Assembly: GCA_031270985.1 (NCBI GenBank)
Contig: JAISWR010000050.1
Coordinates: 1 to 41,547, forward strand
DNA: 41,547 nt
Origin: Bacteroidales bacterium
GTDB taxonomy: Bacteria; Bacteroidota; Bacteroidia; Bacteroidales; UBA4181
Direction of reading: 5' to 3'
In this document: in pieces, positions 23,947 to 26,616 of the stretch
How positions within the stretch are numbered: the stretch's first letter is position 1
Layout: each line of letters begins with the position of its first letter
The notes under the pieces: generated by a model
The model's database searches: none
The model's input: the letters and a program-made list of their open reading frames with translations, nothing else
Told to the model about the DNA's origin: nothing
Program-made: the position numbers and the translations under genes

Positions 23947-23987
23947 CTGAAAACTCCTGATTGTCATCGACAATCAGGAGTTTTCAG
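23947..23987 (-). terminator. Perfect 19-bp hairpin terminator of tRNA-Leu
   Basis: Arms at 23947-23965 and 23969-23987 (CTGAAAACTCCTGATTGTC and its complement) flank the three-base loop ATC. On the minus strand it begins directly at the 3' end of the tRNA and is followed by TTTTTA, so it should end tRNA transcription. It may also stop transcripts from the GH3 gene. Confidence 0.7.
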
Positions 23988-24071
23988 TACCCGGGGCCGG
24001 GATCGAACCGGCATGGGTGTAACCCCACTGGTGTTTGAGACCAGCGCGTCTACCAATTCCGCCACCCGGGC
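23988..24071 (-). tRNA. tRNA-Leu (anticodon CAA)
   Basis: A class II cloverleaf folds on the minus strand. The acceptor GCCCGGG pairs with CCCGGGT, the D arm is GGCGGAATTGGTAGACGC, the anticodon loop is CTCAAAC with anticodon CAA, a long variable arm GTGGGGTTACACCCAT follows, and the T arm has GGTTCGATCCC. CCA is not encoded. Confidence 0.95.
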
Positions 24072-24143
24072 AGAAACAGCAACTTTTCGGGGACAAAGAT
24101 ACATATTTCTTTATTTCACCCAAACAGTCATGCAAAAAAAATG

Positions 24144-24151
24144 TATTTTTG
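24144..24151 (+). promoter_or_regulatory. -7 box for the ABC ATPase gene
   Basis: TATTTTTG matches TAnnTTTG. It overlaps an apparent ATG at 24141 and so argues for a downstream start. No TTG is seen at the right upstream distance. Confidence 0.42.
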
Positions 24152-24191
24152 TGTCGCTTTTATGTCAGATGATGGAAATCGCTTTGTTTTG

Positions 24192-25226
24192 ATGGCACAA
24201 ACTCATTCTCATCAAGCGGATATGGTTTGTTTGGCCTCTGTGTCGGTCGGTTACCGGAGGCAGCCTGTTTTATCGGACGTCAGCGTTTGCGCCGACAGGG
24301 GAGAATTGGTGGCGCTTGTCGGACGCAACGGAATGGGGAAAAGCACACTGATGCGCACCATCGCCCGCTTGCAGCCCAAACTGTCGGGTGATGTGCTGTT
24401 GTGCGGGAAACCTGTTGAAGGCTATTCGCGCAACAGACTGTCCGGCACGTTGAGTATTGTGTCCACCGAAATTGTAAGCGTGTCGCACCTCACCGTGAAG
24501 CAACTTGTGTCTTTCGGACGTTTTCCACACACCAACTGGATAGGCAGACTCACGGCAGATGACATGGCTTTGGTGGAAGAGGCAATACAACTGACGGGTA
24601 TTGCTTCCATCGGCAACAAAAAATTGTACCAAACCAGCGACGGTGAACGCCAAAGAGCAATGATTGCCCGTACATTGGCACAGGATACCCCTGTTATCCT
24701 GCTGGACGAACCGACGGCTTTCCTTGATATGGCGGGCAAGTATGAAACCGTTAGACTGCTGGGGCAACTGACGCGCCGCAAGCATAAAACCATCATTTTT
24801 TCGACACACGACCTGAATATTGCCATGCAGGAAGCCGATAAGTTATGGCTGATCACCGACAACGGTATGTGCGAAGGGGCGCCCGAGGATATGGCGCTCG
24901 ACAACCGGCTGGACAGATTGTTTGAAAACTCCAGTCTGCATTTTGATGGCACAAGCGGCACATTCGGTATCCGTCGCAGCCATGCGTCGACAATTTATCT
25001 TCGCGGAAAGGAGAAATATCTGTTTTGGACACAAAAGGCGCTGGAACGAATAGGTTATGAAGTGGTTTTCCACCACGGCCATCCTGAGGATGCCATGAGC
25101 GTGTCGGTTGCGCTACAGGGGCAAGGCGATCCCTTTCCCTGCTGGACTTTGCAACGGAACGGACAGGAATTGCGCTTTAATTCCATTCTCTCGCTGTGCC
25201 GACATCTGCGCGACATCTGCACGTAA
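24192..25226 (+). CDS. ABC transporter ATP-binding protein, FecE/BtuD-like (iron-complex or cobalamin type)
   Basis: The 344-residue cytoplasmic ATPase would energise an importer for a siderophore, heme or cobalamin. The Walker A is GRNGMGKST (44-52), the signature is TSDGERQRAMIAR, the Walker B is VILLDEPTAF and the switch histidine is in STHDLN. At the Q-loop a TE pair (IVSTEIVSV) replaces the usual glutamine. About 95 C-terminal residues beyond the ATPase core (FGIRRSHASTIYLRGKEKY onward) are an extension seen in Bacteroidetes members. No permease gene is adjacent. The start is uncertain: ATG 24165 is also possible, while 24141 lies in the promoter. The last eight codons and the stop lie inside an 11-bp repeat array. 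Confidence 0.88.
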   Translation: MAQTHSHQADMVCLASVSVGYRRQPVLSDVSVCADRGELVALVGRNGMGKSTLMRTIARLQPKLSGDVLLCGKPVEGYSRNRLSGTLSIVSTEIVSVSHLTVKQLVSFGRFPHTNWIGRLTADDMALVEEAIQLTGIASIGNKKLYQTSDGERQRAMIARTLAQDTPVILLDEPTAFLDMAGKYETVRLLGQLTRRKHKTIIFSTHDLNIAMQEADKLWLITDNGMCEGAPEDMALDNRLDRLFENSSLHFDGTSGTFGIRRSHASTIYLRGKEKYLFWTQKALERIGYEVVFHHGHPEDAMSVSVALQGQGDPFPCWTLQRNGQELRFNSILSLCRHLRDICT

Positions 25227-25354
25227 TCTGCGCAACATCTGCGCAATACCTGCGCAACATCTGCGCAACATCTGCGCAACACCTGCGCAACATCTGCACG
25301 ACATCTGCGCAACATCTGCGCAACATCTACGCAACATCTGCGCGACATCTGCGC
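25201..25354. repeat. Array of 14 tandem 11-bp units (consensus AACATCTGCGC)
   Basis: Fourteen 11-base units run in exact phase from 25201 to 25354. Seven units carry one to three changes from AACATCTGCGC, and the sequence then drifts into unrelated DNA. The first two units and part of the third code the end of the ABC ATPase (HLRDICT, stop at 25224-25226). There are no spacers, so it is not a CRISPR array. Because 11 is not a multiple of three, it reads open in several frames. Confidence 0.95.
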
Positions 25355-25569
25355 GTAATATCTTCCCCAAATTGTTCATTTAAAGAAGATTCCCCGTCGG
25401 AGGAACAGCAGGGAAGGGAAACGAATATGTAAGCCCTGATTGTATTTTGTGATGTAACCTGCTGTTATATTGGCTAATAATACTTTATCGGTGAGGTATT
25501 TAACAATTATTAAGATTTTTTATATTTTATAAATGCGGCATAATGACTAACATTGCAAAAAAAAATCAG
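25355..25569. other. Intergenic region before the efflux operon
   Basis: No gene is seen. A nine-base inverted repeat, AACAGCAGG (25404-25412) and CCTGCTGTT (25458-25466), could form a long-looped stem or a protein site. Promoter-like elements here match the Bacteroidetes consensus poorly (TATATTGG at 25466, TAACATTG at 25547). Confidence 0.3.
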
Positions 25570-26616
25570 ATGAAGATTAAAAATATTATTTATATTGTTC
25601 TTGCCCTTGTATTTGTAGGGCTTATCCTCTATAAGATCGTCTCGTCGAAGCCCGTACAGACTCAAGGATATGCGCGGCAGGCGGTGATGGTCAATTTGCA
25701 GGTAATGAGGTCGGAACAGTTTACAGAAACATTGGCAGTGACCGGTTCGGTGGAAGCCAACGAAGAGGTCATTCTGAAAAGCGAAGTTTCGGGAAAAATT
25801 ACGGGGATTCACTTCAACGAAGGTACGCGAGTTGCAAAAGGCGACCTGCTCATCAAGGTGTATGACGATGATTTACAGGCACAGTTGGTGAAAGCGCAAG
25901 CCAATCTGAAACTCACCGAAGACGTGGAAGCCCGCCAACGGCAATTGCTGGAAAAAGAAGCCATCAGCCGGCAAGAGTATGATGTAGCGTATGCCAACCT
26001 GCAATCCGCACAGGCGGATATTGCGTTGCTGAAATCTCAAATATCGAAAACCGAGATATGCGCCCCGTTTGACGGCAGTATCGGTTTCCGCAAAGTGTCG
26101 CCCGGGGAATACATCACGCCGGGTACGGATATTGCCTCGCTGGTGAATGACAATCCGGTGAAAATACAATTTTCGGTGCCTGAAAAATACGCCGGCGCCA
26201 TCGGGAAAAATTCCATGATACAATACACGCTGGAAGGGATGTTGCAAGAACGGACAGCCTCGGTGTATGCGGTGGAACCTACTATTAATCAGGCAACCCG
26301 TACGTTACAGATGAAAGCCCTCACACCTAACGGAGACAGAGCATTGACGCCCGGTGCATTCGTCAGGATCAACGTCCGCATGGAAACTCGCAACGTTCTG
26401 ATGGCGCCCGCCAATGCATTGCTTTCCGAATCCGTCGGGCAAAAGATATTCATCTACCGCAACGGAAAAGTGGAACCTGTGGTGGTGCAAACAGGCACGC
26501 GCACCAACAACAGAGTGGAGATTCTCAGCGGCGTCAATGCGGGCGATTCACTCATTACTACAGGTTTGATGCAAATAACGCCACGATCGGATGTGCGTCC
26601 GGCAAAGATCGATTAA
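25570..26616 (+). CDS. RND efflux periplasmic adaptor (membrane fusion protein)
   Basis: The 348-residue protein would bridge the inner-membrane pump and the TolC-like channel. It has an N-terminal anchor helix (IIYIVLALVFVGLILYKI), a lipoyl-like half (VTGSVEANEEVILKSEVSGK), a short coiled coil (LVKAQANLKLTEDVEARQRQ onward), the second lipoyl half (ICAPFDGSIGFRKVSPGEYI) and a beta-barrel part (PVKIQFSVPEKYAG). The membrane-proximal end is VETGT-like (VVQTGTRTNNRVEIL). The ATG at 25570 is chosen; an ATG at 25543 would add nine polar residues. The pump gene starts 43 bases after the stop. Confidence 0.93.
   Translation: MKIKNIIYIVLALVFVGLILYKIVSSKPVQTQGYARQAVMVNLQVMRSEQFTETLAVTGSVEANEEVILKSEVSGKITGIHFNEGTRVAKGDLLIKVYDDDLQAQLVKAQANLKLTEDVEARQRQLLEKEAISRQEYDVAYANLQSAQADIALLKSQISKTEICAPFDGSIGFRKVSPGEYITPGTDIASLVNDNPVKIQFSVPEKYAGAIGKNSMIQYTLEGMLQERTASVYAVEPTINQATRTLQMKALTPNGDRALTPGAFVRINVRMETRNVLMAPANALLSESVGQKIFIYRNGKVEPVVVQTGTRTNNRVEILSGVNAGDSLITTGLMQITPRSDVRPAKID

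Follow-up and report, generated by a model that had tools for sequence, protein, structure and literature searches.

The window, by which we mean the whole stretch of 41,547 nucleotides analysed, carries an array of 11-bp tandem units that starts inside the 3' end of an ABC transporter ATPase gene and runs on towards the gene of an RND efflux adaptor (Table 1). The adaptor gene is accompanied downstream by an RND permease gene, and the gap between the last full unit and the adaptor gene is 188 bases. In the sequence-only reading the array was described as lying between two transport operons. Its neighbours are indeed an ATPase of the importer type and a pair of RND efflux genes, but this wording is loose, as the upstream side consists of a single ATPase gene followed by a tRNA gene on the other strand. 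The best NCBIfam match of the ATPase was FecE, with 193 bits, under the cut-off of 375. The true start of the ATPase may be later than the one called, as the majority of alignments start at about residue 24-29.

Table 1. Features at the junction of the ATPase and efflux adaptor genes. A dot means that no strand applies.
Feature	Position	Strand	Basis or remark
tRNA-Leu, upstream of ATPase gene	23987-24071	other strand	
ABC transporter ATPase, FecE/BtuD type, 361 aa as called	24141..25226	+	ORF, homology, NCBIfam
11-bp tandem array, 14 units	25201..25354	.	consensus AACATCTGCGC
TAA stop of ATPase, in unit 3	25224..25226	+	
GTAAT, end of periodic stretch	25355..25359	.	repeats start of unit 3 (GTAATCTGCGC)
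RND efflux periplasmic adaptor, next gene downstream	25543..26616	+	TIGR01730, 246 bits, cut-off 94.9

Tandem Repeats Finder (TRF) reported the array at 25202-25354 with a period of 11, 13.9 copies, 85% matches, 0% indels and a score of 222. Using a register starting at 25201, the identity to the consensus AACATCTGCGC is 92% across the 14 units. Columns 4, 6, 7, 9 and 11 of the unit are invariant in the array, and the departures from the consensus comprise 11 transitions and 2 transversions. At a lag of 11, 123 of 143 positions in the array match, compared to a mean of 55 and a maximum of 61 in 200 simulated first-order Markov windows of equal size. The array is far beyond chance expectation, and as in a minisatellite or long simple sequence repeat its units are placed head to tail in a number above chance. 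The claim of 14 head-to-tail 11-bp units over the ATPase stop was therefore borne out by both TRF and the lag-11 count. The array had been said to end at 25354; the 14 full units do end there, but the periodicity is in fact five bases longer and reaches 25359. The unit count of 14 is the figure of a draft genome and may be a product of the assembly.

The last eight codons of the ATPase (354-361) together with its TAA fall in units 1-3, which agrees with the earlier statement that the first copies encode the last residues of the protein. This stop is the first in-frame TAA, and 11 of the 14 units lie beyond it. The bulk of the array is 3' non-coding DNA. Other ORFs were seen over the array on both strands, and we infer that these are by-products of the open repeat.

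An ATPase match was present in all 60 genomes searched, our own genome included. Of the eight other genomes in the genus, seven gave a match with an E-value below 1e-117 and 55-62% identity, and G005 gave weak matches only. C-termini were read at 16 of 29 fetched loci from other genomes, namely those where the alignment reached residue 352 or beyond. The stop lies at most 11 residues past the alignment end in 14 of these 16 orthologues, and 18 (L007) and 29 (L003) residues past it in the two others, and the C-terminal tail is variable among them. Comparing the C-termini of orthologous ATPases had been proposed as a check. They end at about the same residue, which means that the stop in our sequence is near its usual place and that the tail affected by the array lies past the conserved part. 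TRF on the fetched orthologue loci found no period-11 array other than our own. Five genus genomes (G001, G003, G004, G006, G008) have clear orthologues of both genes, and in each of them the ATPase gene and the adaptor gene are located on separate contigs; the array-bearing junction was not seen in these five, which are drafts whose contigs could still adjoin.

The same unit had also been proposed as something to look for elsewhere in the genome, and here the outcome was negative. A DNA search of our own genome with the array matched the array itself only, and a pattern of two units with up to one mismatch had no match in the eight other genus genomes, leaving our own array as the only one among nine. 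Without mismatches the two-unit pattern was absent from 392 other genomes of the order, our own genome being the sole match among 393. As the units had to match exactly or almost exactly in these searches, an array that has diverged could have escaped them. Exact 11-mers of the array were absent from 582 kb of our own DNA outside it, where 0.3 were expected of each. A related 9-mer, CTGCGCAAC, occurs 12 times in the same 582 kb against 4.8 expected. GTDB genomes and viral contigs were searched as well, in collections where records of our own genome may be missing. The single two-unit match in the GTDB genomes, from Undibacterium, and a viral contig with 2.5 units by TRF were both rejected as relatives, being short and in unrelated context. 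Among plasmids the only match, from Streptomyces, was a partial one covering 17% of the query, and it was likewise rejected. Judged by these searches, the array is apparently species-specific.

A partial census of tandem arrays (minimum score 100, minimum of 3 copies, period no longer than 100) gave 9 arrays in 582 kb of our own genome, two of them with a period of 21-23, and 30 arrays in 536 kb of eight other genus genomes (L063-L082, L103-L114, L143-L162). Among the latter, 14 had periods of 21-23 and five had periods of 41-42. No array was found in 160 kb of two genomes of the family, and seven were found in 390 kb of twenty genomes of the order. The sampled genomes of the genus hold many tandem arrays, frequently with periods of 21-23 and 41-42 bp. 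This excess of certain periods is a lead only, since the stretches were chosen by contig number or earlier matches and not randomly, several arrays share a contig, and 21, 42 and 63 can also be divided by three. The abundance of arrays of 21-23 and 41-42 bp merits a proper census.

The units of the arrays differ between the genomes of the genus, and several are palindromic. A palindromic 23-bp unit, TTAGTTCCGAGCGCAACTAAATG, forms arrays on several contigs of G007 (e.g. L073 80-280 and L158 342-434) and is absent from the eight other genus genomes searched; these arrays are possibly a dispersed element. Our own genome has a second strong array at L086 16025-16172, a single-locus array of 6.4 copies of 23 bp between two converging ORFs. 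Additionally, a unit of 83-85 bp rich in CCTCTGTG and CACAGAGG words is repeated twice in tandem at each of two places in our own genome, 15840-16013 and L049 1150-1325, in opposite orientation.

The array is quite probably a neutral minisatellite that arose at its own locus, where slippage would have expanded an 11-bp duplication present at the gene end. We infer the seed, the slippage and the neutrality. The seed would have been a duplicated 11-bp stretch closing the ATPase gene and reading GACATCTGCGC-GACATCTGCGC-GTAAT. Its later lengthening would be due to unequal recombination or to slippage during replication, and the units would have diverged through point mutations, chiefly transitions. 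With the first in-frame TAA in unit 3, the protein would still end near where its relatives end. The two ends of the array carry a trace that is consistent with this course. Positions 25202-25227 and 25334-25359 hold the same 26-base sequence except for one base. All units resemble one another, and the telling part of this match is therefore GTAAT, which at either end (25223-25227 and 25355-25359) is preceded by a GACATCTGC-C unit. This is as expected if an old gene end, made of two units and GTAAT, had been copied or lengthened. Both TAAs are in the ATPase frame and are 132 bases apart, corresponding to 12 units or 44 codons. The neutral reading is further suggested by the presence of the unit at a single locus, by the zero indels with 11 of 13 departures being transitions, by the orthologue ends that lack an array, and by the arrays of many unrelated units that are common in the genus. 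Two observations count against neutrality, as it demands neither: an RNA fold better than that of shuffled sequences, and an inverted repeat that brackets the array.

The fold concerns 25190-25400, which beats dinucleotide shuffles with z of -3.3 on the plus strand and -4.8 on the minus strand, and which could mean that the repeated GCGC core forms hairpins ending or protecting the ATPase message. When the unit columns were permuted with the periodicity kept, equally good folds were obtained in 51 of 400 cases (plus) and 121 of 400 cases (minus). The fold thus follows from the repetition, and after this control a special RNA structure was rejected. The one Rfam match, with 17.2 bits, is not near its gathering score of 56, and a terminator-like site was not found on the plus strand. 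We regard an RNA element as very unlikely. The bracketing inverted repeat is 18 nt long (25127-25144 and 25406-25423) with 15 of 18 matches; in 40 shuffled versions of the flanks the best value was 14. It would fit the insertion of a MITE or another mobile element at the end of the gene, comparable to the BrickBuilt elements of Porphyromonas gingivalis with their 23-nt minisatellites. Its left arm, however, is ATPase coding sequence, the unit is found at one locus, and the genome holds the downstream flank (25355-25542) once, the best other match being 22 bases with an E-value of 0.11. A MITE would be expected at more than one locus, each copy bounded by terminal inverted repeats; with a single locus and one coding arm it was rejected, and a mobile origin is extremely unlikely. 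It is very improbable, too, that an active process of the genus makes arrays with periods near whole helical turns (11, 21-23 and 41-42 bp), with the array in the window as its one-turn product.

Two functional readings start from ideas that had been raised with the sequence. One is a repeat-number switch, where gain or loss of a unit within units 1-3 would shift the frame, swap the C-terminus of the ATPase and make uptake phase-variable. As 11 is not divisible by 3, and as the two other forward frames meet no stop within the array and run on to 25383 and 25432, such a change before the stop would indeed give a different and longer tail. This part of the claim stands for units 1-3 and fails for units 4-14, which come after the stop; changes in these 11 units would be silent. 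Long simple sequence repeats are among the recognised predictors of phase-variable loci (PMC11868660). Against a switch, the tail is beyond the conserved segment and varies among orthologues, the orthologues lack the array, and the units are non-identical, which in general reduces slippage. Furthermore, an importer ATPase is not known as a usual surface-exposed target of such switches, and we consider this reading very unlikely. The other is a cis element, i.e. a phased protein-binding or curved region controlling the downstream efflux operon, for which the period close to one helical turn and the position of the array, ending 188 bases before the adaptor gene, can be cited. Over 13 steps the 11-bp step drifts by 177-270 degrees from a helix of 10.4-10.6 bp, however, and the unit has no A-tract, where phased curvature would show A-tracts in phase with the helix. 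Five regions in front of orthologous efflux adaptor genes were readable, and none holds an array comparable to ours; one contains a short 7-bp repeat with a score of 53. The efflux operon is moreover equipped with a conserved element of its own (25499-25521). The idea of phased or curved DNA was therefore not upheld, and a cis element is highly unlikely.

The array is real but ordinary and fits a known kind, that of minisatellites or long simple sequence repeats. Some prokaryotic genomes have a strong excess of 6-11 bp tandem repeats between their genes (PMC4060949). Like the long repeats treated there, with units up to 11 bp, our array has head-to-tail 11-bp units in one place, is largely non-coding and has a length far above a random model. 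Unlike these, its units are not perfect (92% to consensus), and it starts inside a gene and covers the stop. BrickBuilt and PgRS (MITE464) of P. gingivalis are also tandem repeats between genes in a Bacteroidales genome; they are 23- and 41-nt tandem repeats inside MITEs (PMC4596501), dispersed and with terminal inverted repeats, whereas our array has 11-bp units at one locus and no mobile copy. The intergenic TAACTGA direct repeats are known from Beggiatoaceae, cyanobacteria and five Bacteroidetes, and some overlap stop codons (PMC4679880). They resemble our array in being short tandem repeats at a gene border and in some cases over a stop codon, but there a 7-bp word recurs at many loci, usually ahead of start codons, while ours is an unrelated word at a single locus after a gene. 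In literature searches on tandem repeats of Bacteroidetes and Bacteroidales, on long simple sequence repeats, on frame-shifting repeats at stop codons, and on 21-23 and 41 bp repeats and the helical turn, an 11-bp array of comparable kind was not found. The array is useful as a calibration, in that an eye-catching repeat over a stop codon can be ordinary, and if its unit number proved variable it could serve as a strain marker for this Bacteroidales-like species.

The element at 25499-25521, upstream of the RND adaptor gene, has the sequence TTTAACAATTATTAAGATTTTTT and is conserved in the genus. It precedes the orthologous adaptor exactly in G004 and G008, with one mismatch in G006 and G001, and in looser forms in G003 and G005, and four more near matches are found elsewhere in the genus. 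From this conservation, TTTAACAATTATTAAGATTTTTT is likely a promoter or regulator site of the efflux operon.
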